Shown here: one piece after another, positions 13,697 to 35,307 of the stretch
Layout of the letters: every line of letters starts with the position of its first letter
How positions within the stretch are numbered: position 1 is the stretch's first letter
Source of the DNA: Candidatus Tenebribacter davisii
Lineage (GTDB): Bacteria > Cloacimonadota > Cloacimonadia > Cloacimonadales > TCS61
DNA: 35,307 bases
Direction of reading: 5' to 3'
NCBI GenBank assembly: GCA_030765535.1
Contig: JAVCCH010000115.1
Location: 1-35,307 of the forward strand
The notes under the pieces: model-generated
The model's input: only the letters and a program-made list of their open reading frames with translations
Told to the model about the DNA's origin: nothing
Databases searched by the model: none
Position numbers and translations under genes: made by a program

Positions 13697-13700
13697 TTTA

Positions 13701-16998: not shown

Positions 16999-18780
16999 TT
17001 AACTTTTATTAATAATAATGTTTTGCATTGATTCTTCAAGAATTGTAACACCTGGCAAACTATCTTTAAGTTTCTCTATAGTCTGATAAACCTCGTCCTC
17101 TCCATCTTTGTTACCTATTGAAAAGTGACCTAAAATAATGTGCTTCGGTTTAATATACTTCTTAATAATCTCTATTCCCGGAGCATCTTCTCCCCAGAGC
17201 GAACCTCTATTAAGAATAGCTATATCTATATCCAAATTTTTAAAACCTAATGAATCAAACTCCTCAATTCCACTTACATCAGCTTGTTCCGAAACCCTTC
17301 CAGTGGCATCTCCAACATGCAATATTTTTACACCATCCAAATTGAATAGAAAACCTAAATTTTCAGTTCGTCCATTATCACCAGTATGTCTTAACCTTAA
17401 AATTTTCACATCAATATTATTCACTGTGGTATCAATTGATTTATACAAATCTGGAGTTAGTCCGACTATACGTGAAGTATCAACTGTGCAATTTTCAATT
17501 TCATTTAACTCTAATAAAGCTGATTGATTACAAATAACTTCTACACTACTGTTTTTCATTAAATACTCTGCAACCATAGGAGCTGAAAAATGATCGGGAT
17601 GTGTATGGGTTAACAGCATAAGATCAACTGATTCAAAAGGCTTATTTAATTTATTAATTTTATCAAGAACTACTGTCGATGGATATAAATATGAACTTGA
17701 AGTTCCGAAAAGAGCATCAATCATGACGGTTTTTGAAGCTGATGAAACCAGGAACCCCATATTTGCTATATATGTAACTTTGATCTCCGATTTAGCCGCA
17801 CCGGTAATCTCAACAATATTAGGTTTGGAAAGCACTCCTCCATTTGTTTTTAAAAACTTTGCTACATCACTATATCCCCAATCGTTTGCCAATGTAGCAG
17901 CTGTTCTGTTTGTATAATCAGTTTTATTAATATTCCACCCCATATCAACAAGCTTAGTTACCCAGGCCAGATTCCCACTTATGGCAGCATTATGTAATAA
18001 ATTTCTGCCTTTATTATCAAGGCTTGTAAGATCAGCTCCTTTCATCACAAGTTCTTCTAAAATATCTTGAAATCCATTTAAAACTGCTGAATGCAGAAGT
18101 TCATTCATTAGTTCTTTATCTTTTGGTAGCTCAGCTCCTTTTTGCTGTAATAGATCAACTATTTCATGACTATTATTTTCTATTGCAAGGATTATAGCTG
18201 ATTTCTTTTTATTTGTAGGCAAATTAAAATCTGCTCCAGCGTTAATTAGGAATTTGCTTATACGGTCTGACTTTAATTCAATAGCAGTATGCAATGCTGT
18301 ATTGCCACTTGTATCCTGCCCATTTAATTTACATTTATTGGCAACCAGGAAGGAACATAAATCGTAATGACTATAGTATGTAGCCAAGTGCAGAGCCGTT
18401 TTATTATCATTAGTCAAATTATTCAGATTTGCACCATTGTCTATCAATAAACGAAGGGTGGATATCTTGTTTGCAGCAACAGTATAATGGACAGCTTCCC
18501 AACCATTTCCTGAATTTTTGTAATTGATATTAGCTCCATTTTGCAATAAAAGATTAACAATACTATCCTTACCTAAAACAGATGCATATAATAGAGGTGA
18601 ATATCCACTATTTATAGAATCTACCAATCCTTTATTTTCATGAATCATCTGTTCTGCTTTTACATAATTGTCATTTCTGATTGTTTCAAAAATTGTTTGG
18701 GCATTAGCAACGGTTTGAATAAATATCACTAAAAGTGCAATTGAGATCAATCTAATGTGTTTGATTAATTCTATATTCAT
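16999..18780 (-). CDS. Exported ankyrin-repeat / metallo-beta-lactamase-fold fusion protein
   Basis: A 593-aa protein with a signal peptide (IRLISIALLVIFIQTVANAQ). Residues ~30-320 are about eight ankyrin repeats (for example DNKTALHLATYYSHYDLCSF and SGNTALHTAIELKSDRISKF). From ~335 to the end is an MBL-fold hydrolase: VTYIANMGFLV, the metal motif HxHxDH as His392-Thr-His394-Pro-Asp396-His397, ILHVGDATG with a further metal Asp, and ILGHFS near the C-terminus. The domain most resembles UlaG/RomA-type hydrolases that act on phosphoesters or lactones, but the substrate is unknown. AAGGAG 8 nt before the ATG supports the start. The domain order with an export signal is unusual: bacterial ankyrin proteins are usually cytoplasmic or effectors. 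It lies 21 bp after the SBBP gene. Confidence 0.92.
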   Translation of the reverse strand: MNIELIKHIRLISIALLVIFIQTVANAQTIFETIRNDNYVKAEQMIHENKGLVDSINSGYSPLLYASVLGKDSIVNLLLQNGANINYKNSGNGWEAVHYTVAANKISTLRLLIDNGANLNNLTNDNKTALHLATYYSHYDLCSFLVANKCKLNGQDTSGNTALHTAIELKSDRISKFLINAGADFNLPTNKKKSAIILAIENNSHEIVDLLQQKGAELPKDKELMNELLHSAVLNGFQDILEELVMKGADLTSLDNKGRNLLHNAAISGNLAWVTKLVDMGWNINKTDYTNRTAATLANDWGYSDVAKFLKTNGGVLSKPNIVEITGAAKSEIKVTYIANMGFLVSSASKTVMIDALFGTSSSYLYPSTVVLDKINKLNKPFESVDLMLLTHTHPDHFSAPMVAEYLMKNSSVEVICNQSALLELNEIENCTVDTSRIVGLTPDLYKSIDTTVNNIDVKILRLRHTGDNGRTENLGFLFNLDGVKILHVGDATGRVSEQADVSGIEEFDSLGFKNLDIDIAILNRGSLWGEDAPGIEIIKKYIKPKHIILGHFSIGNKDGEDEVYQTIEKLKDSLPGVTILEESMQNIIINKS

Positions 18781-21141: not shown

Positions 21142-21174
21142 AACGTAAAGCCGCTCTATGAGCGGCTTTACGTT
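21142..21174. terminator. 15-bp perfect hairpin preceding repeat copy 3
   Basis: Arms AACGTAAAGCCGCTC (21142-21156) and GAGCGGCTTTACGTT (21160-21174) pair perfectly around a TAT loop. The inner 12 bp and loop are identical to the hairpin at 10437. The outer pairs differ there (ACACA/TGTGT versus AACG/CGTT) yet both pair fully. It lies 200 bp beyond the end of the GH3 gene and has no adjacent T run. Confidence 0.7.
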
Positions 21175-21373: not shown

Positions 21374-23293
21374 TTAATGTTTATACTCCAAACCATAGCC
21401 AAACGGGAACAGCGGATTGTAATTTTCGTCACCAAGATTCCAGTTTTCATCATCATAACGAGGCCAGGAGAAACTCAGTTTTCCCTGAATGTCATAGTCA
21501 CCAAAGATAACATCGGCAACACCTTTACCTTCTGAACCAGGGAACCAGGCAACAACAAAAGCTTTTGATGCTTCCAATTCCTGATTGATAATTAGCGGAC
21601 GGCCGCAGATCATAACTGCCACGACTGGAACACCTTTACTCGTCAGGTTTTTAATAGTTTCGATATCTTCGGGGTGCAATTGGTGAAGATATAAATGAGT
21701 TCCATATGGTCCTTTTTTCATTATAGGAATAGGTTCGCCTTCCGAGGTTGAGCCTTTACTGATCTTTAATCCTTTAGCCAATCCTTCCACGCGAATATCA
21801 CCTAGCATTTCTGCATAGGGAACTTCACCGATAACCACAATAGCTACATCATGCTTTTCGGAGTCAGCATCAGAGCCGTCAACACTCAATTGGGCATTGG
21901 GTGCCATAGCCTGAATTCCTTCCCAGATTGATGTTCCTCCAACAATTGAGGATCTATGGGATATTTTGTTACTGACTTTGCTATTTCTTGGTTTTTCTTT
22001 TTCAGAATCAGACATGATATATGGTTTCTCAGCAGATTCGGCAGTATCGTCTACACCCTGCCAGGCAACTGTAAATCCACCACACTGATGTCCACGATTG
22101 TGAGCATTTTTTCCTGTAACTAAAATCCGAGCATTTTTATCTAAAGGAAGAATATCATCGTCATTTTTCAGCATAACCAAAGATTTTTGAACAGCTTCCC
22201 GGGCTACTTCACGATGTTCATCACAACCGAAACAGGAGTGATCCAAAGATAATTTTCTTTCTGCGGGTCGTGGTTTGTCGAACATTCCAAATTCATATTT
22301 TACACGCAAGATACGTCGAACAGCATCATCCAGGCGGTCCATAGTGATACGACCATTCTGAACATTTGTTTTTATATGCTCTATAAACTCTTTCCATCTG
22401 CCAGTGATCATGAACATATCAATGCCTGCATTTAAGGATTGAACTGCACATTCTTCGTAACTTTCGTCTATATAATCAATTCCATCCCAGTCGGAAATTA
22501 CAAATCCATCAAATCCTAATTCCTTTTTTAGCAAGTCTGTGAGTAAGAATTTATGCCCATGAAGTTTCTCGCCATACCAGCTGCTAAGAGAAACCATCAC
22601 CGTAAGGACGCCAGCTTTTATTGCTTCGATGTAAGGAGGAATATGAAGTTTTCTCAGTTCTTCTTCGGTAATACACATATCACCCTGGTCAATTCCGTGC
22701 AAAGTAGCACCGTCACCAACAAAGTGTTTCACACAGGCTATCACTTTATCTTCTTCATAATTTCCCTGTAGTCCTTTCACGAATCTGGGAGCATATTCAG
22801 CAACGATTTTCGGATCTTCGGAATAACTTTCATAGGTTCTACCCCAATGACTATTTCGAGCAACAGCCAGGGTGGGAGCAAAAGTCCAATCAACTCCTGT
22901 AGCAGCAATTTCTTTAGCTGTAGCAGCAGCAATTCGCTCTAATAGATTTGCATCATGAGCAGCACCTAAACCAATATTGTGTGGAAAAACAACAGCGCCC
23001 AAAACATTGGTGTTTCCGTGAATAGCATCTACACCATAGATTAGAGGAATAGCCAGATGATCTGCATCTTCTTCCATGGAAGAAGCCCAGTATTCGTCAT
23101 TCATCTTGATCCAATCCTCAGGCTTATTGTCACCTGGAACAGATCCGCCGCCACTCAAAACAGAACCAATATGATATTTTTTTACTTCTTCCGGAGTAAC
23201 AAATTGACGTTCCGGCTGCAAGAGCTGACCTATTTTTTGATCTAAAGTCATTTTTGCCAATAATGCGGAAACTTTACTTTCAATTTCTTTCAT
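21374..23293 (-). CDS. Glycoside hydrolase family 3 beta-glucosidase, cytoplasmic
   Basis: A 639-aa GH3 enzyme that removes glucose from the non-reducing end of beta-glucosides with retention. The TIM-barrel domain shows YGVDAIHGNTNV, FAPTLAVARNSHWGRTYESY, KHFVGDGAT and the nucleophile Asp268 in FVISDWDGID. The second alpha/beta domain shows VVIGEVPYAEMLGD, where the acid/base Glu of this subfamily is expected, and ends with the conserved PFGYGL segment. There is no signal peptide (MKEIESKVSALLAKMTLDQK), unlike periplasmic BglX, so it should act in the cytoplasm on imported oligosaccharides. Tandem ribosome-binding elements (AGGAG and AAGG) precede the ATG. It is 35 bp after the phosphorylase gene and last in the glucan operon. 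Confidence 0.95.
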   Translation of the reverse strand: MKEIESKVSALLAKMTLDQKIGQLLQPERQFVTPEEVKKYHIGSVLSGGGSVPGDNKPEDWIKMNDEYWASSMEEDADHLAIPLIYGVDAIHGNTNVLGAVVFPHNIGLGAAHDANLLERIAAATAKEIAATGVDWTFAPTLAVARNSHWGRTYESYSEDPKIVAEYAPRFVKGLQGNYEEDKVIACVKHFVGDGATLHGIDQGDMCITEEELRKLHIPPYIEAIKAGVLTVMVSLSSWYGEKLHGHKFLLTDLLKKELGFDGFVISDWDGIDYIDESYEECAVQSLNAGIDMFMITGRWKEFIEHIKTNVQNGRITMDRLDDAVRRILRVKYEFGMFDKPRPAERKLSLDHSCFGCDEHREVAREAVQKSLVMLKNDDDILPLDKNARILVTGKNAHNRGHQCGGFTVAWQGVDDTAESAEKPYIMSDSEKEKPRNSKVSNKISHRSSIVGGTSIWEGIQAMAPNAQLSVDGSDADSEKHDVAIVVIGEVPYAEMLGDIRVEGLAKGLKISKGSTSEGEPIPIMKKGPYGTHLYLHQLHPEDIETIKNLTSKGVPVVAVMICGRPLIINQELEASKAFVVAWFPGSEGKGVADVIFGDYDIQGKLSFSWPRYDDENWNLGDENYNPLFPFGYGLEYKH

Positions 23294-23328
23294 TTCCTTA
23301 TTCTCCTATATTTTTTTTTTGATATTAT

Positions 23329-26300
23329 TTAACAGAGTTCTATTTTTATTCGTCTAATTTCTCTGTTACGGATTTTTTCAGCAATTTCACCTCTTAGAGA
23401 ATCGCCAGAGAAGGCCTGAGAATTTCCATCCAGATCAATTATAGTCAAAATGGATAAAGAGACACCAGCAGATCCAAATGTATCCTTGCGACCTTTATTA
23501 TGATAAGTTACCAGGATTTCTCCCAGGAACATGAAGCTGAATGTGTTCGCTGCAAATTCAATTTCTTCCCATTTATCATCTAGAAGCAATCTACTTGTTT
23601 GAACTTCTTTAGTGAATAGCCATCCTGGCAATGCTGGCTTAAAGAGAAGCTGTAATTCACCATCCTGATTGATAGTAAAAGGATTTTGACCAACAGACAT
23701 AAAGTGTAATATATTCACAAACTCAGCTGTAGCTCCGCTTAAGCGAGCCACAAAACCGTTGCCGTGAATAGAAGAATCAGGATTAGCACTACTGACGATA
23801 AAGGAGGAATTTTCTAATATGCTTCTACCGTAGACCTCAGGCTTCAAGAAGGGAATGAATACATTTTTGAAATCCTGATAAAACTCTGTGTAAAGTTTAT
23901 TTCTAAGGAGTTCCAGCATATACTTATATTCCATATGCAGCCAGATCGATTCATTTTCAAACCAACCGGGTGAAAAAGTTCTTGCTCTGCCGATTTCCAT
24001 AGGCTGATCTTCTAGAGATTCATTCACTTTATACATCTTCAGTTTTTTATCAAAAAGGCCGCTTTTTCTGATATTACCCGCAAAAGTTTTAGCATGATCT
24101 GTGTTCGTATTGCATCGCAGGTAATGAACAGGACCTTCCAGGAAAAGCGGTAAAGGAGTTTGCTTGAACTTCCTGGCTCTGAAGCAGGTCAATCCTTTGG
24201 CATTGCGCTTCAGTTTCTTCTTGCCATCAGGTTCTTCAGTAGTAATCCCCTCATATTCAACGACTTCATTAACGAAATATGTAGAGATCACATTGTCTTT
24301 TTTATTCCAGGCCTTCTCGATACCTTTATCCAATTTTTTCAAGCCGGCTTTCAGGAAATCAACTAAATCACCAAAGGCCAACTCTTCTTCTTTTCCGCTG
24401 ATTCCAAGTCTAGTTTTCGCACGATATTTTTCTTTGATGGTTGTAGCTTTATTCCAAAATTCAAAAGGAGATAATTGAGCATTCAGAACACTTTGCAGTG
24501 CATCCACGAATTCCTTCATTTCTTCATATACCAGCCAATCTTTATCTTCCACATCAAGCTCATCAAGAGCCTTTAAGAGGAACAGAATATGGCGTTTTAC
24601 TTCCAAAGTTTCGCTAATACTGGAGCCCATCAATCCCGGCAAACCATTCAAAGCATCATACCAGTTTGGTTTATTCGTCTCCATTTCCACACCCACACCT
24701 TCTGCATCCAGAGAGGCTAGTTTGTTTACAATAAGAGAAAGCATTTTATTGAACAGGGAAGTGGTATAAACGTTACCTTTTCCATATTCGGAACGAACTT
24801 TATTCGGATCATGAGTGCGCTGGTTGATCTGCAGTTCTTTCTCTTCATCGAAAATCACAGAATTCAGCTGCATGGGTTTGTCGTCCCAGATCACATATTT
24901 ATCATCTCGAGGTTGAACACGATGAGGATTATCATAAAAAGAAAATGCTTTCTTCTCGAATAATATATGGTTTTTATTATCGGGATAAACAGCCAGGTAA
25001 TTTTCCAGTAAATCCAGGTTGTAAGTCCAATGATCAGTCCAGAAACCCTCTCCGTAACCAGTATCATATTTTTTATCACAGTGACCAAGCAGATCACCAA
25101 TAAAGTTTTCAGTATCACCATTTACAGCAATATTCTGTTCTTTCAAATGAATCATCAATTCACCTGGAGTAAATGGTTCCTGCAAATATGGACTGACGGA
25201 CTTCACGTATTCCAATCCCAGATATTCCGTTAAAATTTCATCTCCTTTTTCAGCATCAGAAATGGTAAAACGGATCTCTTTAATTACCAAGGGATTGAAG
25301 CCATCTAACTGCATCAAATTGTAAAAATGTTCTACATTACCTTCCCGAACATCAGGATTGAAGAAGAGATCACAGCGGCGATTCTGATTTACATCTCTGA
25401 AATTACCGTTTCCCTGAGAATACTGTGTCGGTGTAAGGCGATAATCATTATAATCTCTCTCCAGGTCTCCGTGTTTACGAGAATATAGATGCATAGTCGA
25501 AGATGTTTCCTTTCCTTTTAAAGTGTGTGGAAATCCACCGCGCAGAGCATTATCCAGGAAATTCTGTCTAGTATAATAATCTAAACCAGGTTCTTGACTG
25601 CAGATAAAATTATTCTGAGTAAGTGTTTTAACGATTTCCTGATTTGTCTGAGCCTTGTCATCAATATAATCTTTATTTGTAATGATAGGAACCAGCTCAT
25701 TCAGCTCTTGAACGGATCCTGTTTGACCAATTACGGAGGTATATGTGCAGGTTTCTTTCGGAGTAATGGATGTGTCAAAAATTCCCATTGCACACGGCAG
25801 TCGATTTTCAAAGATTTGTCCGGAAATCATTTCTTCTGAAGAAGATGTTAAAAACTTCTCAGGATAATTGTAATCTCCCCGGATTCCAAAAATTTTAACA
25901 GGATCTACGATCGGAGTAACTAATTTGGATTGGTTCTCTCCGGATGCAAAACCCAGATAAAAATTCCCCTTCTTAATTCTAACTACGTCAGGGCGGTCTG
26001 CAGGTTTTACCTTTCCCTTAAAGAAAGGAACACTATTCTCGTGGTTGACAACTTCTACAAATGCCTCTTGTAGTCGCCTCATGTGTTTCAGACCATTGTT
26101 ATCAATTCCATAAGGAACAATGAGTGGCAATCCATCGAGGACTTCTAATTTTACAGGAACTGTATTTAAATTTTCAATATTCAGTTTACGAATAAGACCG
26201 GCATAATTATCTTGAGGTACATTGAAATACTCTACTGTGAATTTGAGCCCCAGTGTATGATTGACTTCTTCAAGTATTAATTGAGCTGGTGTAATTATCA

Positions 26301-26652
26301 TGCGTTGAGTACGTTGTACCTGCTTATCTCGCAAATTATTTTGGAATGGTTCGTAGAACTTGATTGATTCATGGTCGGGCAGTTTTACGAATGTTCTGAA
26401 TCCCTGGTTTGAAACCAGATTATAAGCCCAGTTAGCGGGTAGGAATTCCATAATAGGATTATGTTTGCCCTCTACACCCATACTGCAAATACATTGACCT
26501 CGGTTAACGTAGAAAGTCCACATGGGAATGCCGTTTTTACCGGCAACACCCGGGAAAAAACTTGAGAATAACTTGGATGAATTGTAATCAGTAATGATAA
26601 ACTCACCTGTTTCATTTAATTGATATTGTTTTTTATTGAAAGGAGTCAACAC
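23329..26652 (-). CDS. GH-Q clan glycoside phosphorylase (GH94/GH149/GH161-like)
   Basis: An 1107-aa protein without signal peptide, hence cytoplasmic. It has the order of GH94-type phosphorylases: an N-terminal beta-sandwich (ITDYNSSKLFSSFFPGVAGKNGIPMWTFYVNRG), a helical linker, an (alpha/alpha)6 barrel, and a C-terminal beta-sheet part. The barrel includes GEGFWTDHWTYNLDLLENYL, where Asp540 is the likely general acid, and near the end comes SSFIVSSANPDSSIHGNGFVARLSGATAEF. Such enzymes split beta-glucosides with phosphate to release glucose-1-phosphate. The length is well above that of cellobiose phosphorylases (~800 aa) and near GH149/GH161 beta-1,3-oligoglucan phosphorylases. With GH17, GH30 and GH3 neighbours I favour a beta-1,3-glucan substrate. 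The start is GTG 26652 (AAGG five bases before), though TTG 26649 is possible. Family assignment needs a profile search. Confidence 0.85.
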   Translation of the reverse strand: MLTPFNKKQYQLNETGEFIITDYNSSKLFSSFFPGVAGKNGIPMWTFYVNRGQCICSMGVEGKHNPIMEFLPANWAYNLVSNQGFRTFVKLPDHESIKFYEPFQNNLRDKQVQRTQRMIITPAQLILEEVNHTLGLKFTVEYFNVPQDNYAGLIRKLNIENLNTVPVKLEVLDGLPLIVPYGIDNNGLKHMRRLQEAFVEVVNHENSVPFFKGKVKPADRPDVVRIKKGNFYLGFASGENQSKLVTPIVDPVKIFGIRGDYNYPEKFLTSSSEEMISGQIFENRLPCAMGIFDTSITPKETCTYTSVIGQTGSVQELNELVPIITNKDYIDDKAQTNQEIVKTLTQNNFICSQEPGLDYYTRQNFLDNALRGGFPHTLKGKETSSTMHLYSRKHGDLERDYNDYRLTPTQYSQGNGNFRDVNQNRRCDLFFNPDVREGNVEHFYNLMQLDGFNPLVIKEIRFTISDAEKGDEILTEYLGLEYVKSVSPYLQEPFTPGELMIHLKEQNIAVNGDTENFIGDLLGHCDKKYDTGYGEGFWTDHWTYNLDLLENYLAVYPDNKNHILFEKKAFSFYDNPHRVQPRDDKYVIWDDKPMQLNSVIFDEEKELQINQRTHDPNKVRSEYGKGNVYTTSLFNKMLSLIVNKLASLDAEGVGVEMETNKPNWYDALNGLPGLMGSSISETLEVKRHILFLLKALDELDVEDKDWLVYEEMKEFVDALQSVLNAQLSPFEFWNKATTIKEKYRAKTRLGISGKEEELAFGDLVDFLKAGLKKLDKGIEKAWNKKDNVISTYFVNEVVEYEGITTEEPDGKKKLKRNAKGLTCFRARKFKQTPLPLFLEGPVHYLRCNTNTDHAKTFAGNIRKSGLFDKKLKMYKVNESLEDQPMEIGRARTFSPGWFENESIWLHMEYKYMLELLRNKLYTEFYQDFKNVFIPFLKPEVYGRSILENSSFIVSSANPDSSIHGNGFVARLSGATAEFVNILHFMSVGQNPFTINQDGELQLLFKPALPGWLFTKEVQTSRLLLDDKWEEIEFAANTFSFMFLGEILVTYHNKGRKDTFGSAGVSLSILTIIDLDGNSQAFSGDSLRGEIAEKIRNREIRRIKIELC

Positions 26653-26697
26653 TACCGCCTTTTTAAATTTAATGTTTTTTATAACTCATAGAAATAA

Positions 26698-26728
26698 ACC
26701 TCAGCCGGCATGAAATACCAGCTGAGGT
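26698..26728 (-). terminator. Intercistronic hairpin after the large binding-protein gene
   Basis: ACCTCAGC (26698-26705) and GCTGAGGT (26721-26728) form an 8-bp stem, extended by two G-C pairs after a mismatch. On the minus strand it lies 9 bp beyond the stop of the 1329-aa protein and is followed by TTTATTTCT, so it may be a leaky terminator or a 3'-end stabiliser before the phosphorylase gene. Confidence 0.6.
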
Positions 26729-26737
26729 CGTTTGTTA

Positions 26738-29700
26738 TTATTTCATTAGGATCATTTTCTTTGTTTCGACAACGTTTCCGGCTTTCATCTTGTAGAAGTA
26801 AACGCCGCTTGCTGTGGTTTTGCCGTTATCGTCTTTACCATTCCAATGGATGTCATGGTATCCGGCTTCAAGTTCTTCATTCACAAGAGTTTTCAATTTT
26901 TCACCCTTGATGTTGTAAACTTGGAGCGTAACAAAACTATCCTCACTAAGACCATATTTGATCATCGTGGTTGGATTGAATGGGTTAGGATAGTTGCCGT
27001 CCAGTGAAGTTACCATAGGAACAAGTATTCCACCTGCGCCAGTATGTTCAACCGGAGCTGAATCTTCAGACATTGGGCCTACAAAGCCACCGGTAAATAC
27101 ACCTGCAACGTTATAGATGTAAGTTCCGGTTGATACGTTTCCATCAACATACAGACCAGAGTTCGAAGTTCCAATCTCAGTGCCGTCTCTGTAGATTATA
27201 TAAGATTCGATATCACGGGCTCCCAATGTTGTCCAGATAACTACGATATTTGGCCAGACAGAGTTTCCAGACACGTTAGTTGGTGCAGCAAGAACTACAT
27301 CTGCAGTAGCTGTGTTGGATGGTTCAGATTCTCCAGTTGGGTCTGTATAAGTCGCGATTACATAGTAATCATAACTACCAGCTTCAAGACCTTCATCCAG
27401 ATAATCTACTATAGCAGGATCAGAAATGTCGGCGATCCAGGATCCGTCACGATATACTTCGTAACCGGCCAGTGAACGTGAATTACTGTTATGCTGTTGT
27501 GTGATTACTCGCTTTCTGCTGCTTGCAGCTTCGAACATTCCATTATTTAGGCGGGAACTTGTACCGATTCTGCTTAAGCTTGGAGCGGTGGTTTTACTTT
27601 TGCTTGGTGTAAGGGCAACAACTTCACCATCAGAGCCTTCTACATAAGCTTGAAGATTGAAATTGTAAGCAAATCCAAGTGGAGTTAAAGGTTGCCACAA
27701 ATTATTGAAATAGCACATGTCGCCATAACCTTCGATAGATGGACCCAAATCGGTGCCTGCTGGATGCATTCCTTCATCATGAGAAACATCATAGCCAAAC
27801 CACAGATGAGTTGAAGCATCAATTATATGAGGAGTATCTAAGATGATCTCATTAAATTCTCCTACTATATAATCAGCAATTACTTGCTCATATTCTACTG
27901 TGCCTGCATCTGCACCTGACCATATCTTAAGTGTGAAATCTGCTGGATCATTTACGAAAATTTCTACTCTCATTAACGCAAGCCCATCATAAGCTGTCAA
28001 CATATCTGGATCCCACTTCGATGCACTACTGAAAGTATATGGAGCTGTTCCACCTTGAAGTCCAAGAGAGTTTCCATTTGTACCATCGTCCCAGCCAAAC
28101 CATTCACCTACTGCTCCACCAGGAAGTTCCCAGGTTACCAGTACATCATTGTAGTCTTGTACTGTAGACTGAACGTTGCTTGGCGGATTGAAAGAGGGTG
28201 ATGCATCACTATAGAAATAAATATTATCAAGGTAGATTGTAGAAGGAGTAACACCTTCCTGACCGTCGAATTTTAACTGAAAGATATCAGCCATGGAAAC
28301 ACCTGTAAAATCACCTAAAGGAATATTATAGCTATTCCATGTTTCTACTTCTATCGGTGTTAATGATACAAGATATTCTCCAGTTGAAGCACTAATTGGA
28401 GTCATCTTTACAACTGATGCATTATGAGTCCACATATCTATATGCATATAATCCATTGCAGAAAGATCTTGAGCTCCATCAAACTCTGTTCCCTGATAGT
28501 TAAAATTGTCGTATTTCATCATGTTGTTGCCGCCAATATCTTCGAATGTTACGATGGTTGTCTGTCCCCAGCCGGGATTAAAGTTCGTACCTTCAATACT
28601 GGTATATGAGCCACTAAAGATTGAAATTACATCATCAGCAGGTACGGTTGGATCAGGAGCAGCAACTGTTGGTACTGGTGGTTCAAGAGTAAAGATAACA
28701 TTGTAAGTGAGTATTGTCACTTCATCTTCGGCAGTAACCACAACTTCGGTAGTTCCAGGTAAAACAGCTGCATCATTTACAATGTGACTGGCATTTGGAT
28801 CGTTCGTAGTTGCAGTAACTGTTGGAACTATTACGGTACCATTTGGTAATTCGATATCATAACTTAAGATATTCGGATCAAATCCAGCAACTGTTGTTCC
28901 ATCAACCTGAAGATCACTAAGAGTAGCGTCTGAACCTGAAGCCGTAGGATTTTTCCAAAAATAGATATTATCTAAATAGATTGTTGAAGGAGTTACTCCT
29001 TCCTGTCCATCAAATTTCAGCTGGTGGATATCAGCCATCGAAACATCCGTAAAATCTTCTACAGAAATATCATAGCTATTCCATGAGCCTGCTTCAATTG
29101 GCGTTAACGATACAAGATGTTCTCCGCTTGAAGTGCTAATTGGAGTTGCCTTAACCACAGTTGCATCTGCTGTCCACATATCAATGTGTATATATTCCAT
29201 AAGTGAAAGGTCTTGTGCTGCAGCAAGTTGAGTTCCCTGATAATTGAAGGCATCATATTTCATCATTTCATTACCACCGATTTCTTCAAATGTTACGATG
29301 GTTGTTTGTCCCCAACCAGGATTGAAGTTTGTACCTGCCAGGTCAGTATATGCATCACTGTAGATTGATATTACATCTTCAGGAAGTGATGTTGGATCTG
29401 GAGCAGCTACAGTTGGTTCGGGTGATGGTTCTTCCACTGAAAAGTTTACACTGTATGTCAGGGTTGTGGTTCCATCTTCCGCTGTCACTGTAACTGTAGT
29501 TGTACCTGGTAGAGAAGCAGCATCATTTACTACATGACTGGCTGCCGGATCTGTAGTAGCAGCAGTTACTGCTGGAACTACTGAAGTACCTTCAGGTAGT
29601 TCTACATCATAATTCAATACTGCTGGTGAAAAACCAGCAACGGTGGTGCCGTCTACCTGTAGATCACTCAAGGTTGCATCTGTTCCGGGGGCTGATGATG

Positions 29701-30727
29701 AATAAAAATATATATTATCCAAATATAATACAGAAGGATTTACACCTTCCTGACCATCAAATTTCAATTGAACGATATCAGCCATGGAAACGCCGGCAAA
29801 ATCTGCCAGAGGAATATCATAACTATTCCAAGATTCTATTTCAATAGGTGTAATGTATGTAAGATTTTCTCCGGTTGAAGCACTAATTGGTGTTACCTTT
29901 ACAACAGTGGCGTTGGGAGTCCACATATCTATATGCATATAGTCCATCGAGGAAAGATCTTGAGCTCCGACAAATTCTGTTCCCTGGTAATTGAAATTGT
30001 CATATTTCATCATGAAGTTACCGCCAATCTCTTCGGTCGTAACAACAGTCGTTTGACCCCAGCCAGGATTAAAGTTCGTACCAGCAATGTCTGTGTATTC
30101 ATCACTGAAAACAGAAATTACATCAGCAGCAGGAACAGTTGGTACAGGAGCAGCAACTGTGGGTTCCGGAAGCGGTCCAGATACCTCCCCATCAGGGGCC
30201 TGAATATTATCAAAGTAGATTATGTTTTCCTGAGCTCTTGCAGTAAAATCAGGAATAATTACCATGGTTCCATAGGTATTACCAATTTGACCAGAAAAGT
30301 CGAAGCTTATTTCTTCCCACTGATCTGTAACTGTATTAGGGACAATTATTTGATAATTACCACTCATACCTTCAACTTTAAAGCCAATATCACTTATCTC
30401 AGTTTTATATACCATTATAGTTATGGTTGAGTTGGTTGCGTCAAAGGTATATTCACCATCATCAGAAGTATGACATAAAGCCCAGGGATTTCCATCTACT
30501 CTTGCTGTAAATTTTGCTACAGTTGCTGTAGTGTTTATCCCTCCGCTTACCGGGTTTGCTATAAATTCCAGGGGTGGATTATCGCCATTTTCAGCCATTG
30601 TCCAATTCCAATCTGCTCCAACTCCACCAGTTTCAAAATCAATAGTGTGAGTAACTTGTGCAAACGCCAGATTGCTTAGCGATATGATAAACAATAAAGC
30701 TATATAAGATACGATTGTTTTCTTCAT
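26738..30727 (-). CDS. Large T9SS-sorted multidomain protein with three glycan-binding-like repeats
   Basis: A 1329-aa exported protein with signal peptide (IVSYIALLFIISLSNLAFAQ). The domains in order are an N-terminal beta-sandwich (~25-178, starting THTIDFETGGVGADW), repeat 1 (~189-344), a cadherin-like sandwich (~345-430, DATLSDLQVDGTTVAGFSP), repeat 2 (~438-593), a second cadherin-like sandwich (~594-680), repeat 3 (~685-843), an Fn3/jelly-roll region (~845-1030), a basic Ser-rich stretch, Fn3 modules (~1085-1235) and a type A sorting domain (~1245-1329, NYPNPFNPTT to KKMILMK). The repeats (DVIS.FS..YT.I.GTNFNPGWGQ) resemble domains attached to GH16 laminarinases and surface glycan-binding proteins of Bacteroidetes laminarin loci. 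No catalytic domain is seen, so it is likely a surface glucan-capture protein. AAGGAGGG precedes the ATG. Confidence 0.9.
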   Translation of the reverse strand: MKKTIVSYIALLFIISLSNLAFAQVTHTIDFETGGVGADWNWTMAENGDNPPLEFIANPVSGGINTTATVAKFTARVDGNPWALCHTSDDGEYTFDATNSTITIMVYKTEISDIGFKVEGMSGNYQIIVPNTVTDQWEEISFDFSGQIGNTYGTMVIIPDFTARAQENIIYFDNIQAPDGEVSGPLPEPTVAAPVPTVPAADVISVFSDEYTDIAGTNFNPGWGQTTVVTTEEIGGNFMMKYDNFNYQGTEFVGAQDLSSMDYMHIDMWTPNATVVKVTPISASTGENLTYITPIEIESWNSYDIPLADFAGVSMADIVQLKFDGQEGVNPSVLYLDNIYFYSSSAPGTDATLSDLQVDGTTVAGFSPAVLNYDVELPEGTSVVPAVTAATTDPAASHVVNDAASLPGTTTVTVTAEDGTTTLTYSVNFSVEEPSPEPTVAAPDPTSLPEDVISIYSDAYTDLAGTNFNPGWGQTTIVTFEEIGGNEMMKYDAFNYQGTQLAAAQDLSLMEYIHIDMWTADATVVKATPISTSSGEHLVSLTPIEAGSWNSYDISVEDFTDVSMADIHQLKFDGQEGVTPSTIYLDNIYFWKNPTASGSDATLSDLQVDGTTVAGFDPNILSYDIELPNGTVIVPTVTATTNDPNASHIVNDAAVLPGTTEVVVTAEDEVTILTYNVIFTLEPPVPTVAAPDPTVPADDVISIFSGSYTSIEGTNFNPGWGQTTIVTFEDIGGNNMMKYDNFNYQGTEFDGAQDLSAMDYMHIDMWTHNASVVKMTPISASTGEYLVSLTPIEVETWNSYNIPLGDFTGVSMADIFQLKFDGQEGVTPSTIYLDNIYFYSDASPSFNPPSNVQSTVQDYNDVLVTWELPGGAVGEWFGWDDGTNGNSLGLQGGTAPYTFSSASKWDPDMLTAYDGLALMRVEIFVNDPADFTLKIWSGADAGTVEYEQVIADYIVGEFNEIILDTPHIIDASTHLWFGYDVSHDEGMHPAGTDLGPSIEGYGDMCYFNNLWQPLTPLGFAYNFNLQAYVEGSDGEVVALTPSKSKTTAPSLSRIGTSSRLNNGMFEAASSRKRVITQQHNSNSRSLAGYEVYRDGSWIADISDPAIVDYLDEGLEAGSYDYYVIATYTDPTGESEPSNTATADVVLAAPTNVSGNSVWPNIVVIWTTLGARDIESYIIYRDGTEIGTSNSGLYVDGNVSTGTYIYNVAGVFTGGFVGPMSEDSAPVEHTGAGGILVPMVTSLDGNYPNPFNPTTMIKYGLSEDSFVTLQVYNIKGEKLKTLVNEELEAGYHDIHWNGKDDNGKTTASGVYFYKMKAGNVVETKKMILMK
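28200..28673 (-). repeat. Glycan-binding-like internal repeat 3
   Basis: This segment encodes the third ~155-residue module (PTVAAPDPTVPADDVISIFS to YLDNIYFYSD). It has strong DNA similarity to the matching blocks at 28945 and 29697, at a period near 750 bp that includes the intervening cadherin-like module. Conserved features are GTNFNPGWGQTT, MMKYDNFNYQGTEF, MHIDMWT and LKFDGQEGV. Confidence 0.8.
28945..29416 (-). repeat. Glycan-binding-like internal repeat 2
   Basis: This segment encodes the second module (PTVAAPDPTSLPEDVISIYS to YLDNIYFWKN). It is followed at 28690-28940 by the second cadherin-like sandwich (TVAGFDPNILSYDIELPNGT), so the repeating unit is glycan-binding-like module plus cadherin-like module. 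Confidence 0.8.
29697..30163 (-). repeat. Glycan-binding-like internal repeat 1
   Basis: This segment encodes the first module (PTVAAPVPTVPAADVISVFS to YLDNIYFYSS), followed at 29437-29694 by the first cadherin-like sandwich. It is closest by eye to repeat 3 (shared MMKYDNFNYQGTEF and GAQDLS.MDYMHIDMWT). Confidence 0.8.
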
Positions 30728-30733
30728 TTTCCC

Positions 30734-30743
30734 TCCTTAAGGA
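30734..30743. promoter_or_regulatory. Palindrome overlapping the ribosome binding site of the 1329-aa protein
   Basis: TCCTTAAGGA is a perfect 10-bp palindrome containing most of the minus-strand AAGGAGGG site. A similar one, TCCTATAGGA, lies at 32227-32236 before the 465-aa protein. It may be a coincidence of AGGA-type sites. Confidence 0.25.
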
Positions 30744-30778
30744 AATAAAAATTATTCATAATAAATCTTAGAAATTGG

Positions 30779-30811
30779 AACAGCCGGCACTATATCAAAA
30801 TGCCGGCTGTT
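30779..30811 (-). terminator. Intercistronic hairpin after the small binding-protein gene
   Basis: AACAGCCGGCA (30779-30789) and TGCCGGCTGTT (30801-30811) form a perfect 11-bp stem with an 11-nt loop. It is 10 bp past the stop codon of the 465-aa protein and 50 bp before the next start. On the minus strand CCAATTTCT follows, with no real T run, so mRNA 3'-end protection or partial attenuation is more likely than full termination. Confidence 0.65.
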
Positions 30812-30821
30812 ATTATGTTTC

Positions 30822-32219
30822 TTACTTCATCAAGATCATTTTCTTAGTTGAAGTATAGTTTTCAGCTTTCATTTTGTAGAAGTAAACTCCACTTGCTACA
30901 GGTTTGGCGTTATCATCTGCACCATTCCAAACAACTGCGTGAGTGTTAGCTTCGAGGTCTGCATCTACAAGTGTGCGGACTTTTTCGCCTTTGATGTTGT
31001 AAACTTCCAATGAAACATGACCTGCTTCATTCAAACCGAAGCTGATGCTGGTTGTCGGGTTGAATGGATTTGGATAGTTATTTCCTAAAGCAAAATTAGA
31101 AGTGATTAAATCTTCATTAACGCTTACTACATCGTTATAGAAATATACATTATCAACATAAACAATATTAGGATCACCGGAAATGATCAATTGAGCAAGA
31201 TGGCCAGTTGTTGTTAGAGCTGTGAAATCAGACATTGGAATATCCAAACTTACCCACTCTTCAGTGGCTAAGGCCGGAGTTGTAGTCTCATCAAGAGTGA
31301 TTTCGTGTTCTACATCATCACCGCCACCCCAAGCGCCGTCAGCACCGAAATCTACAAGTTTGATCTTGAAAATTGCAGGAGCTGCTGTTGGATCTGGTGT
31401 CCATACATCCATATTGAAGTTTGTCATTTGTGTAGCATCTATAGTTTGCGATGTGAATTCGATTCCTGCAAATACCAGATTAGTGTAAAGCTTCACATCA
31501 TCACCGGCAACCTGAACATCAACAACATCTGCCTGATCCCATTCTGCTGACCAGGTATCAACTGGTACATTTGTATAAGCGTTGCTGAAGAGTGAAACAA
31601 CATTCTCAGCTAAAGCTGTTGGTATTGGAGCGGCTACAGTTGGGCCTACCGGAGGAGCACCTCCATCAGAAAATGTAATATTATCAAAATAACAGATATT
31701 ATCTTGAATTCTTCCAGCCAGATCAAAATCCGGGAAAATCACTAATTGGTCATATCCATCAGTTACTTGAGCAGCAAAGTCGAATGTGAGTTCTTCCCAT
31801 TCATCTACAACTGTATTGGCAACCTTAATCTCTCCCATCGACCAGCCGTCAGGTTTCACTAATTTAATTCCAACATCGCTCATCACAGATTTATAAACCA
31901 TTATCTTAATTGTGCTGTTTGTTTCGTTCAGATTATACGTACCAATATCTGCACCGTGTAATGTTTCACAGCCAGCCCAGGGTTGACCTGCTTGCAATGC
32001 AGTGAATTGTGCCACTGTCGCAGAAGTGTTAGCACCAGATGCATCTGGATTTGCTATAATCTCAACTGCAGGATTAGTATCATTTTCAAAGACTGTCCAT
32101 GTCCAGTCTGCTCCATATCCACCTGCTTCAAAATCGATTGGTGCGTTTTGTGCGAACATCATAGTATTCATCGCAAGGATGAACATAGAAACAATAAAAA
32201 ACATTATTGCTTTTTTCAT
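30822..32219 (-). CDS. T9SS-sorted glycan-binding-like protein
   Basis: A 465-aa exported protein with signal peptide (AIMFFIVSMFILAMNTMMFAQ). It contains an N-terminal beta-sandwich (~27-180, IDFEAGGYGADWTWTV) homologous to that of the 1329-aa neighbour. A glycan-binding-like module follows (~190-365, PTVAAPIPTALAENVVSLFS, AYTNVPVDTWSAEWDQ, YVDNVYFYND), and a type A sorting domain ends the protein (~378-465, NNYPNPFNPTTSISFGL to STKKMILMK). The middle module carries the 'VDTW...W' variant seen after GH16 laminarinase domains, different from the three repeats next door, so the two proteins may prefer different parts of the glucan. No catalytic residues are seen. AGGAGG precedes the ATG. It lies 30 bp after the GH17 gene. 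Confidence 0.9.
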   Translation of the reverse strand: MKKAIMFFIVSMFILAMNTMMFAQNAPIDFEAGGYGADWTWTVFENDTNPAVEIIANPDASGANTSATVAQFTALQAGQPWAGCETLHGADIGTYNLNETNSTIKIMVYKSVMSDVGIKLVKPDGWSMGEIKVANTVVDEWEELTFDFAAQVTDGYDQLVIFPDFDLAGRIQDNICYFDNITFSDGGAPPVGPTVAAPIPTALAENVVSLFSNAYTNVPVDTWSAEWDQADVVDVQVAGDDVKLYTNLVFAGIEFTSQTIDATQMTNFNMDVWTPDPTAAPAIFKIKLVDFGADGAWGGGDDVEHEITLDETTTPALATEEWVSLDIPMSDFTALTTTGHLAQLIISGDPNIVYVDNVYFYNDVVSVNEDLITSNFALGNNYPNPFNPTTSISFGLNEAGHVSLEVYNIKGEKVRTLVDADLEANTHAVVWNGADDNAKPVASGVYFYKMKAENYTSTKKMILMK

Positions 32220-32226
32220 TTTTTCC

Positions 32227-32236
32227 TCCTATAGGA
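32227..32236. promoter_or_regulatory. Palindrome overlapping the ribosome binding site of the 465-aa protein
   Basis: TCCTATAGGA is a perfect 10-bp palindrome overlapping the minus-strand AGGAGG site, matching in layout the one at 30734. No other gene in the operon has it. Confidence 0.25.
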
Positions 32237-32249
32237 ATTTGTTTTAGGA

Positions 32250-33356
32250 TTATTTTTCATGCTTCAACTCGCTATGTATTATGTAGTTTTGAAATGATTC
32301 TTTGGGTGTGCGATCTTCATGAAAAATACCCCAGTTTTTTTCAATTTCATTGGGTCCAGAATTTTCACCACCACCTTTCCAAGGTTCATCGAAGGCCTCG
32401 AAAAAGAAAGTGGTAATTTGGTTATCATTAACCCATTTATTTAATTCGATAAGAAATTTTCCCTGAGCTTTTATACTGACTTCACCTTTGATAAGTGAGC
32501 CCTGCTCTCCATCACCTTTTTTATCTGCATTATATACTGTAGCCCAGCCGATCTCTCCCAAAACGAGCTGCTTTTCCGGATGATTAATTTTAATATACTC
32601 ATAGTTCTCATCCAGCCAGGGGATGGCATTATCAAGTGTTTTTCCGTTCCAAAGTGGATAGATATGGGTTACAATAAAATCAATTTCTGAAGCCACAGCT
32701 TTGCTTTCTGGTTTATTCCAGAAGTTGTAATCATCTGCGGTTGTAACAGGAATAGTAATATTGTTTCTAACAGCACGGATATAGCGGATCAGATTCTTGC
32801 TGTTCATTCTATGCCAGGACCAGAAGACTTGAGTTTCATTGCCCACATTCACGGCTGCAATAATGTCTGGATATTTATTTGCCAGTTCAATGCAGCGTAA
32901 AACATTTGTAATGTTAGATTTCTTTGTTTCGGGGTCTTTTTCTTCATTTGCCAGCCAGATGCCCAGCATCACTTTGACGGGGATCATATTTTCCCGGATT
33001 ACTTCAAGAAGGCGTTCTGAATCATCGTCAGCATTATAAACACGGATAAGATTCCAGTGATTCGTGATAATATTAAGATCTTCAAGAATTTCTTCTTTGC
33101 TGGGGCCGATATTTCCCGGTGCCTGTCCTTTTCTATAACATCCGTAAGAAATTGCGTTTCCGATCCATTTGCCGTCCAAGTAAGGTTTAAACTCGCGCAC
33201 AGCAAAAGGTGTATCGGTCTCTAAGGTTTGTTCTGATTCAAGCTTAGCACGGATTTCCTCAATTGAGATTTTAGAAATATTTGAGTTTTTACTGCACGAA
33301 ATCAGAAGAGCTGAGAAAAGAAGTGCAATAATAAATATAAGATTAAGTTTTTTCAT
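32250..33356 (-). CDS. Glycoside hydrolase family 17 lipoprotein (beta-1,3-glucanase-like)
   Basis: A 368-aa lipoprotein: signal MKKLNLIFIIALLFSALLISC, lipid anchor on Cys21. The mature part is a single (beta/alpha)8 barrel resembling bacterial GH17 enzymes, starting at KWIGNAISYGCYRKGQAPGN, with the acid/base Glu174 in AAVNVGNETQVFW and the nucleophile Glu268 in LVLGEIGWATVY, both in the positions typical of clan GH-A. GH17 members cut or transglycosylate beta-1,3-glucans. The C-terminal FFFEAFDEPWKGG segment is also conserved in the family. TAAGGA precedes the ATG, and it follows GH30 by 14 bp. It should act at the outer membrane or in the periplasm on laminarin-type chains. Exo versus endo action cannot be decided here. 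Confidence 0.92.
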   Translation of the reverse strand: MKKLNLIFIIALLFSALLISCSKNSNISKISIEEIRAKLESEQTLETDTPFAVREFKPYLDGKWIGNAISYGCYRKGQAPGNIGPSKEEILEDLNIITNHWNLIRVYNADDDSERLLEVIRENMIPVKVMLGIWLANEEKDPETKKSNITNVLRCIELANKYPDIIAAVNVGNETQVFWSWHRMNSKNLIRYIRAVRNNITIPVTTADDYNFWNKPESKAVASEIDFIVTHIYPLWNGKTLDNAIPWLDENYEYIKINHPEKQLVLGEIGWATVYNADKKGDGEQGSLIKGEVSIKAQGKFLIELNKWVNDNQITTFFFEAFDEPWKGGGENSGPNEIEKNWGIFHEDRTPKESFQNYIIHSELKHEK

Positions 33357-33370
33357 CTTTTTTTTAATCC

Positions 33371-35038
33371 TTACATTTGAATCCGAACTGTTTGAACCGA
33401 ATTTGCCGCTATTGTTATTTCGGCAAATTTTGCGCCGATCTGCATATTATAGAAGATCGGTTTTGTTGTAGTATTCAATAATTGAACACTCAACATTCCA
33501 GCATCATTAATTGTAGCACAAGTATGCAGATCATCTTCACCAAGTTCAGCAGTATCTTTTTTGGTTTGAACAGCTTTGTCTCCAGGACGAATTGTGCGGC
33601 TGAATTGTGAAAGTACATGGAAGATCGGTGTGTAATAAACCTGTTTTGTTTCTGTATCGATCATGATCGGAGCTCCACAGAAATTTCCTACGTGATTGGG
33701 ACCACCATCGGCATCGAGAATAACATTCCAATCTACCCAGCCTGTAACCCAGTGATCAAGACTCACGATGATATTGCGAGCATATCTGTGTACTGGAACA
33801 TAAGCAGGATGATCTTCAGTTTTCACTCCCTGCCAGGTTACGGAATATGCCCAGTCTGTAGCGTTATCATTCCACCAGAATTCATCATTCTCAAACCAGT
33901 TAGCTTCTTTAAATTTTACCGGTTCAGTTACACCGTCCGGAGGATCTTTTCCCAGATCGTCAATGCAGCCTTCGGTGTGAACAATCGCATATTCAGGAAA
34001 TTTCTTGTGAACTTTTTCAAAAACATCTTCGAATACCTTGAATGTGCTTTCATACCAGTGAACAGCAGCACCATAAATGAACGGAGTTGTTTGTGTATCA
34101 GCAAAAATAACATCAGCCCAATGTTTCAGGCCATCTCTGTTTTGATCATAAATTAGTAGCTTTATATCAGAAAATCCGCTTTCCTTCAGACTTGGTCCCA
34201 GATGGTTTTTGATAAAATCATTCTGCGATTCCGGAGAAAAATTCATACTTTCCCACTGGCCATTATTTCCGTGAGGCTCGTTCACAGGAGTTAAACCCCA
34301 GATGTTCACGCCTTCATCTTTGTAGGCATCCAGATATTTTACAATGTAATCAGCATAAGTAGAAACATATTCTTCTTTTAACGATCCGCCGGTACCTTGC
34401 CAGTTATTTGCAGGAGCTCCGGGAATATACCATTCTTCTATGTCTTTCATCCAGGGTGGTGCAGTCCAAGCTGAGGAAATTATTCTCAGTTCTTTATCTT
34501 TTTGTTTGTTTTTAATTGCGATCGCTTCTTTGATCATCGGTAAAAGATCATAATTTTCGTCTTTTATCCCAGGATATTCTTTAGTATCGAAACCTTCTTT
34601 ATCCGGTGCAAGAGTGAAGCTTTCCAGTTTCACATCACCTTTTTTATCAACGTAGGAATATCGACCTTCTACGCAAAAATCACAAGCACCAATATGTGTA
34701 CGGGTTAAAGAGAAATTTGCTCCTGTTTCGCCATAAACCTGTTCCATTACTTCCTGTCGTTTTTCCGGTTCAAGATGGGCCAGTACAAAGGCAGAAGATT
34801 CTGTAAAAGATGACCCAATACCGTCTATGGTCTGTTTAATGCTGTCGGGATAGATGTGAATAACAGTTCCTTCAGCAATTCCGTTTTGGAATGTAACATT
34901 ATCCTGTATGGCAAGTTTGTCACCATCTGCTGAAGTAAGCATAATTTCGGATGTGGAAGAAAATTTATTCGTTCCACATCCGAAAAGTGATATTAAAAGA
35001 ATAATGAAAACGATTGTTTTAAATATATTCTTTCGCAT
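33371..35038 (-). CDS. Glycoside hydrolase family 30 lipoprotein (beta-glucosidase / beta-1,6-glucanase-like)
   Basis: A 555-aa lipoprotein: signal MRKNIFKTIVFIILLISLFGC with Cys21 lipidated. It has the GH30 barrel and side beta-domain: QTIDGIGSSFTESSAFVLAH, LTRTHIGACDF, SSAWTAPPWMKD, the acid/base Glu254 in WGLTPVNEPHG, and the nucleophile Glu356 in AIVHTEGCIDD. The C-terminal beta-sandwich ends IAANSVQTVRIQM. GH30 subfamilies 1 and 3 include beta-glucosidases and endo-beta-1,6-glucanases, and removal of beta-1,6 branches from laminarin would complement the adjacent GH17. Glucocerebrosidase-like activity is the alternative. A TAGGAT site precedes the ATG. It lies 9 bp after the symporter gene and is in the same operon. 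Confidence 0.93.
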   Translation of the reverse strand: MRKNIFKTIVFIILLISLFGCGTNKFSSTSEIMLTSADGDKLAIQDNVTFQNGIAEGTVIHIYPDSIKQTIDGIGSSFTESSAFVLAHLEPEKRQEVMEQVYGETGANFSLTRTHIGACDFCVEGRYSYVDKKGDVKLESFTLAPDKEGFDTKEYPGIKDENYDLLPMIKEAIAIKNKQKDKELRIISSAWTAPPWMKDIEEWYIPGAPANNWQGTGGSLKEEYVSTYADYIVKYLDAYKDEGVNIWGLTPVNEPHGNNGQWESMNFSPESQNDFIKNHLGPSLKESGFSDIKLLIYDQNRDGLKHWADVIFADTQTTPFIYGAAVHWYESTFKVFEDVFEKVHKKFPEYAIVHTEGCIDDLGKDPPDGVTEPVKFKEANWFENDEFWWNDNATDWAYSVTWQGVKTEDHPAYVPVHRYARNIIVSLDHWVTGWVDWNVILDADGGPNHVGNFCGAPIMIDTETKQVYYTPIFHVLSQFSRTIRPGDKAVQTKKDTAELGEDDLHTCATINDAGMLSVQLLNTTTKPIFYNMQIGAKFAEITIAANSVQTVRIQM

Positions 35039-35047
35039 CTAAATATC

Positions 35048-35307
35048 CTAAGATTTTTCTAAATTAAGTTCTTTAGTTTCAAGTTTTTGAGCATGACGTT
35101 TTTCCAGTTCAGTACGAACTTCATTTGCACGTTTTTCAGTTAAATCATAATTACGCATCAGTAAGATAGCGATCAGCGTTCCCAGTATTGGAAATCCGGA
35201 ATAAAAAATTCTCAATCCTGTTATCGCGCCCTCAGTTTGCGTAGCAGCACTGGCATCAAATCCTACTACTGACATAATAATACCAGTTAATAATCCTGCG
35301 ATAGCGA
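35048..35307 (-). CDS. GPH-family (MFS) sugar:cation symporter, C-terminal fragment
   Basis: The frame is open to the window edge, so the 5' part is missing. The 86 visible residues contain one to two membrane segments (AIAGLLTGIIMSVVGFDA and LRIFYSGFPILGTLIAILLM) and the charged tail YDLTEKRANEVRTELEKRHA. This end, with 'TGLR..y...P......a......Y.L.e.r...i...L..R', is typical of glycoside-pentoside-hexuronide:cation symporters such as MelB relatives. The location is the inner membrane. As the gene upstream of GH30, GH17 and the binding proteins, it is the likely importer of glucan oligosaccharides. An ATG at 35275 is internal, not the start. Confidence 0.85.
   Translation of the reverse strand, partial: AIAGLLTGIIMSVVGFDASAATQTEGAITGLRIFYSGFPILGTLIAILLMRNYDLTEKRANEVRTELEKRHAQKLETKELNLEKS

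Follow-up and report, generated by a model that had tools for sequence, protein, structure and literature searches.

Gene content and contig reconstruction

The window analysed here, a stretch of 35,307 nucleotides, is the complete contig C15 of genome G000, a 3.0-Mb, 95%-complete assembly of 218 contigs assigned to Candidatus Cloacimonadota. Positions 21374–35307 hold seven minus-strand open reading frames separated by gaps of 35, 85, 94, 30, 14 and 9 bp, which encode, in operon order, a symporter fragment, a GH30 and a GH17 family lipoprotein, two T9SS-sorted surface proteins (T9b and T9a), a GH161 phosphorylase and a GH3 enzyme (Table 1). The strong terminator-like hairpin that follows the GH3 gene probably marks the operon end, and the second hairpin, also strong and inside the operon, is a possible attenuator or processing site that could keep the cytoplasmic enzymes at a lower expression level than the surface proteins. 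Two further regions of the window are of separate note: positions 12770–14630 carry two neighbouring paralogous lipoprotein genes (~310 aa each) with near-identical N-termini and beta-propeller-like products, resembling a tandem duplication, and positions 16999–18780 encode a secreted protein with ankyrin repeats fused to a metallo-beta-lactamase-type domain.

Table 1. Features of the locus on contigs C15 (plain coordinates), C75 and C156 of genome G000
Feature	Location	Strand	Remarks
Terminator-like hairpin, 15 pairs	21142..21174	-	~200 bp past the GH3 stop
GH3, putative beta-glucan exohydrolase/beta-glucosidase	21374..23293	-	Pfam GH3 N and C domains, 2.8e-81
GH161, putative beta-1,3-oligoglucan phosphorylase, 1107 aa	23329..26652	-	phmmer to GH161A 9qqk 1.4e-215, 9h8v 3.4e-215
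Hairpin, 15 pairs, weak T-tract	26697..26729	-	between T9a and GH161
T9a, T9SS-sorted surface protein	26738..30727	-	one domA, three domB, linker domains, sorting tail
T9b, T9SS-sorted surface protein	30822..32219	-	domA 25-190, domB 191-372, type-A sorting tail
GH17 family lipoprotein	32250..33356	-	PDB 6fcg (GH17) 2.9e-19 (phmmer)
GH30 family lipoprotein	33371..35038	-	Pfam GH30 TIM barrel 1e-67, 229 bits, cut-off 23
GPH/MFS_2 cation:sugar symporter, C-terminal 85 aa	35048..35307	-	Pfam MFS_2 28.9 bits, cut-off 27
Same symporter, N-terminal 192 aa	G000:C75:3-578	-	match to full-length homologue L009:1257-2723
GH16 laminarinase-like lipoprotein, 908 aa	C75		after the symporter fragment
GntR regulator with LacI-type sensor domain	C75		divergent to GH16
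GH158-like/predicted barrel fusion, ~1,060 aa	G000:C75:4798-7086 and G000:C156:2-1015 (L096, L097)		divergent arm
Small lipoprotein, 206 aa	L097:1027-1647		directly downstream of the fusion gene
T9SS GH16-like protein, 602 aa			after the small lipoprotein; L098 homologue matches GH16 weakly
GH2_C-like protein, 601 aa			after the 602-aa protein; restriction-modification-like genes follow

The operon is truncated, as C15 stops at position 35307 inside the symporter gene. The full-length symporter homologue of a related genome has only two matches in the whole of G000, and these are complementary (residues 3-192 on C75 and 404-488 on C15), which rules out a second symporter gene as the source of the two fragments; against the GPH model TIGR00792 this homologue scores 193.6 for a cut-off of 231.35. 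No end overlap of at least 11 bp was found between C15 and C75, and we infer their link from the split gene, with about 211 codons missing in between, and from the same order being contiguous in genome G001, where the whole arrangement lies on a single contig of 78,035 bp (C80, the contig of L009). The last 127 bp of C75 are identical to the first 127 bp of C156. The region on C15 would correspond to two thirds, the distal part, of a locus for using beta-1,3/1,6-glucan of the laminarin type, a reading that we consider probable jointly with the working scheme proposed below. The initial annotation had described a compact operon of seven minus-strand genes that starts with a GPH symporter; the open reading frame calls agree with the seven genes and their short gaps (9–94 bp) and the symporter fragment matches Pfam MFS_2 above its cut-off, but only the C-terminal fragment of that gene is present in the window and about half of the locus is missing from it, being located on C75 and C156.

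Predicted enzymes for glucan breakdown

The GH30 protein has a signal peptide, a lipobox-like motif (LFGCG) and the catalytic motifs NEP and TEG. Its best PDB matches are GH30 glucosylceramidases (5e-56), its match to the model of the endo-1,6-beta-glucanase BT3312 (NF053856; 8e-57) reaches 193 bits against a cut-off of 700, and it likely removes beta-1,6 branches. The GH17 protein, also with a signal peptide and a lipobox-like motif (LLISC), remains under the Pfam cut-off (3e-5, 24.2 bits against 28.2), yet its alignment to 6fcg covers both catalytic-Glu segments (VGNE and GEIGWA), and no second GH17 was detected in a search of the whole genome. It is predicted to act as an endo-beta-1,3-glucanase or a transglycosylase.

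No Pfam-A model matches the phosphorylase, which aligns with 9qqk over residues 17-1025 with an identical segment around the catalytic Asp (wYDALNG). Membership of GH149 was rejected at 128 bits against a cut-off of 1150 bits, whereas GH161 structures score 720. The closest named relatives are from Candidatus Cloacimonadota (70–73% identity), and in the tree the protein is placed inside a supported Cloacimonadota group (95/94). By family, it is a putative beta-1,3-glucan phosphorylase. The characterized GH161 enzyme PapP phosphorolyses beta-1,3-oligosaccharides with a degree of polymerization of 3 or more and stops at laminaribiose (PMC6484121), which would explain the GH3 partner. The latter is most similar to the exo-1,3/1,4-beta-glucanase ExoP (3rrx, 1.3e-167) and barley ExoI (7e-135), and since neither GH161 nor GH3 has a signal peptide, both are read as cytoplasmic.

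Most of the genes had been identified correctly in the initial annotation; the "GH-Q clan phosphorylase" can now be assigned to GH161 by its end-to-end match to solved members. This enzyme set also points to the beta-1,3/1,6-glucan (laminarin-type) substrate that was proposed, and the suggested saving of energy by cytoplasmic phosphorolysis is judged plausible.

T9SS-sorted surface proteins

Both T9SS-sorted proteins end in a type-A sorting tail that exceeds the cut-off of 23 bits of the NCBIfam model TIGR04183 (T9b 40.7 bits, T9a 36 bits), and the genome encodes 112 T9SS tail matches and an SprA homologue (SprA_N, 7.8e-19). They are built from domA and domB modules that are shuffled and differ in copy number between relatives. 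No Pfam carbohydrate-binding module (CBM) matches either protein, and the profile of the family finds a single solved protein, 8qx6 ("PKD domain-containing protein"), over domA (8e-13), on which a literature search returned nothing concerning this locus. The AlphaFold model of T9b (pLDDT 80) has as its top Foldseek matches a CBM22 tandem, the Bacteroides surface glycan-binding protein B (SGBP-B) and CBM4, in line with the earlier description of two binding-like proteins, here predicted to be CBM-like beta-sandwiches. Since domB is also appended to a GH16 enzyme in a relative (L098), this predicted fold makes glucan binding by T9a and T9b likely.

A GH158-like protein with a predicted outer-membrane barrel

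The fusion protein is encoded in the divergent arm, and a further copy lies at L098:13411-16596; fourteen full-length relatives were aligned. A first assignment of its N-terminal domain to GH2, based on Pfam GH2_C, was superseded after PDB profile and fold searches: the profile search of the N-terminal half finds GH158 structures (GH158(Pro) 9oro, 2e-7; BuGH158 6pal, 1.6e-5) and Foldseek ranks GH158 first (4e-13). Residues N180, E181 and E281 are invariant in all 14 fusion proteins. Their aligned counterparts in BuGH158, an endo-beta-1,3-glucanase specific for laminarin, are N136, E137 and E220, whose mutation inactivates the enzyme (PMC7157763). We therefore classify this half as a putative GH158-like endo-beta-1,3-glucanase, distant enough from known GH158 that it may deserve its own subfamily.

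For the C-terminal half of ~600 residues, which no Pfam or NCBIfam model covers, about 26 beta-strands are predicted, a provisional count given the model quality (pLDDT 68, pTM 0.47). Its Foldseek matches comprise MOMP, AlgE, OpdK, BtuB and chitoporins, the C-terminal residue is Phe in 12 of the 14 proteins, and strand-like hydrophobic alternation exceeds that of shuffled sequences solely in this half. We predict it to be an outer-membrane beta-barrel; N-terminal modules of such barrels mostly face the periplasm, and the membrane side taken by the GH158-like domain would follow from the number of strands. The small lipoprotein encoded directly downstream, for which there is no Pfam match, has homologues that follow the fusion gene in loci of Cloacimonadota and Geobacteraceae (e.g., L015:9219-9938 and L014:9270-9911), and is a possible partner of the barrel.

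The presence of the alginate exporter AlgE among the matches raises the alternative of a locus for building or remodelling a beta-glucan, with the barrel as exporter and GH158 and GH17 as transglycosylases. There are exopolysaccharide systems in which glycoside hydrolases of the periplasm work alongside export barrels, transglycosylases occur among GH17 and GH72 enzymes, and phosphorylases are reversible. However, no glycosyltransferase is found among the genes of the locus, and a symporter with cytoplasmic GH161 and GH3 downstream of secreted endo-glucanases fits catabolism, which makes a biosynthetic role highly improbable.

Absence of SusC/SusD and the outer-membrane step

The genes that would lie past position 35307 were inspected on C75 and C156, where a GntR-type regulator was present on C75; neither these contigs nor C15 encode SusC or SusD. 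No SusD (PF14322) is found anywhere in the 95%-complete genome, and SusC (TIGR04056) has no match over the cut-off, only weak matches below it of the kind that Escherichia coli also gives. A SusC/SusD pair hidden beyond the contig end is thereby ruled out, and the initial annotation was right in describing a glucan locus without one.

Uptake by one of the seven TonB-dependent receptors (Plug-domain matches) that the genome does encode, with the GH158-barrel mainly serving as an anchored enzyme, appears quite unlikely. None of the seven lies within the locus, no SusC is detected over the cut-off and SusD is absent, and in a limited test, phmmer searches that used the receptors of this genome as queries gave no receptor in related loci. 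Apparent receptor matches in L011, L013, L050, L067 and L079 traced back to genes next to the query receptors, among them an ABC ATPase.

We regard the GH158-barrel fusion as the best candidate for passage of the outer membrane, better than the T9SS proteins, this being the least certain step of the whole scheme.

Distribution across genomes

Among 125 Cloacimonadota genomes, the fusion is present in 18, GH161 in 18 and both in 14 (Fisher p = 6.7e-12, related genomes not being independent); the remaining 4 of the 18 GH161 genomes are without the fusion. The locus is found again, its gene order almost unchanged, in further Cloacimonadota (L009, L010, L026 and L027), and ten loci of Neomarinimicrobiota and related genomes (L016-L025), some cut by contig ends, show a second gene order with GH16 and a ROK regulator, so that the gene set is far beyond chance. 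As the fusion is absent from the nine other members of the genus of the window, the distribution of the locus is patchy. The barrel occurs in 5 of 245 genomes of the Neomarinimicrobiota phylum, with four reading frames of fusion length and one broken; in the latter, the gene is split into three open reading frames by a frameshift or a sequencing error (L133:5742-8866), and the adjoining phosphorylase shares only 24% identity with GH161. At least six Neomarinimicrobiota loci contain GH158 without a barrel, and the barrel is therefore not obligatory. In a Gemmatimonadetes-labelled genome, GH17 and GH161 flank a peptide-type ABC transporter, which adjoins the terminal part of a GPH-like gene (L013:4191-9958).

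In Geomonas limicola (L015) and a Geobacter MAG, GH30 and GH16 lie opposite a set made up of GntR, GH158-barrel, small lipoprotein and GH161; the locus contains neither a T9SS protein nor a symporter. The GntR regulators (53–59% identity) and small lipoproteins (40–46%) are homologous between the phyla, which indicates one inherited or transferred unit. The synteny comparison hence extends the layout outside Bacteroidetes, as initially suggested, to Cloacimonadota, Neomarinimicrobiota and Geobacteraceae.

These loci also bear on the proposal of the initial annotation that T9SS-anchored binding proteins and the symporter replace SusC/SusD, which in its explicit form would dispense with a dedicated outer-membrane channel and leave the entry of small oligosaccharides to diffusion via general porins. 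In its favour, both the T9SS proteins and the symporter exist and are encoded inside the operon, and most Neomarinimicrobiota loci, having GH158 but no barrel, would depend on a different pore. However, neither binding proteins nor a symporter of the inner membrane can take glucan past the outer membrane; a barrel protein, co-inherited with GH161, is encoded in the locus itself, on its divergent arm; and the Geomonas and Geobacter loci keep the fusion, GH161, GH30 and GH16 without the T9SS proteins or symporter. We consider this proposal unlikely and do not retain the claim of replacement. That the fusion itself is a self-cutting outer-membrane glucan channel in place of SusC/SusD in Cloacimonadota, some Neomarinimicrobiota, the Gemmatimonadetes-labelled genome and Geobacteraceae, always accompanied by GntR and the small lipoprotein in the versions from Cloacimonadota and Geobacteraceae, is a possibility that we put forward tentatively.

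Proposed glucan utilisation scheme

In the catabolic scheme that we favour, T9SS-exported CBM-like proteins and GH16 enzymes would hold and cut the glucan at the cell surface, and the fragments would enter via the fusion's barrel, with its endo-beta-1,3-glucanase domain cutting chains at this outer-membrane pore. Judging by what is known of their families, the lipoprotein GH30 would take off beta-1,6 branches and the lipoprotein GH17 would shorten the backbone, after which the GPH symporter could import the linear oligosaccharides. In the cytoplasm, GH161 would phosphorolyse these as far as laminaribiose, releasing glucose-1-phosphate, and GH3 would hydrolyse the remainder, while the GntR/LacI-type regulator may govern both arms.

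Bacterial laminarin uptake has mostly been described via the SusC/D systems of Bacteroidota, and an enzyme-pore fusion could be a further way for glycans to cross the outer membrane. Laminarin is a major molecule of the marine carbon cycle (PMC7104365), and for uncultured anaerobes that live in sulfidic waters and sediments, the locus offers a route for glucan use that can be tested and in which ATP would be saved by phosphorolysis. The close version in Geomonas limicola, a named strain, implies that a culturable relative could serve for such tests.

Comparison with known systems

For Cloacimonadota, one study reports no more than generic beta-glucanases and glucosylceramidases (PMC8542988), and in the literature searched, of which coverage was partial, neither this locus nor a GH158-barrel (GH-porin) fusion nor laminarin use in this phylum was found to be described. 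Parts of the gene set are known from elsewhere: a laminarin locus with GH161, GH30, GH16 and GH1 from Bacillus weihaiensis (PMC6484121), and the combination of GH16, GH158 and GH3 with SusC/D from the 1,3GUL of Bacteroides uniformis, which comprises SusC, SGBP-A/SusD, SGBP-B, GH16, GH158 and GH3 (PMC7157763). The Cloacimonadota locus shares with 1,3GUL the GH16, GH158-like and GH3 enzymes, beta-sandwich surface binding proteins (as predicted) and a probable laminarin-type target, but is without SusC/SusD, has its GH158-like domain fused to a predicted barrel, and employs putative binding proteins that are T9SS cargo, a cytoplasmic GH161, a GPH symporter and a GntR-type regulator. With the Gram-positive GH161 loci it has in common secreted GH30 and GH16, cytoplasmic GH161 and a beta-glucosidase; in those bacteria, which have no outer membrane, GH161 is reported to be partnered with ABC transporters for uptake (PMC6484121), whereas here a GPH symporter, the GH158-barrel fusion and T9SS surface proteins are found instead. 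The architecture of the fusion resembles that of PgaA, in which a non-catalytic TPR domain precedes the porin that exports PNAG (PMC9384988), in that a soluble N-terminal module is followed by a C-terminal outer-membrane barrel (predicted in the fusion), but the module is GH158-like and glucanase-related and the locus is catabolic.

The laminarin PULs of marine Flavobacteriia contain GH17, GH30 and GH3. The Cloacimonadota locus follows the same logic of debranching and endo-cleavage, its GH17 having 6fcg as the closest solved relative, and differs from these PULs in having no SusC/D and in its putative phosphorolytic end step.
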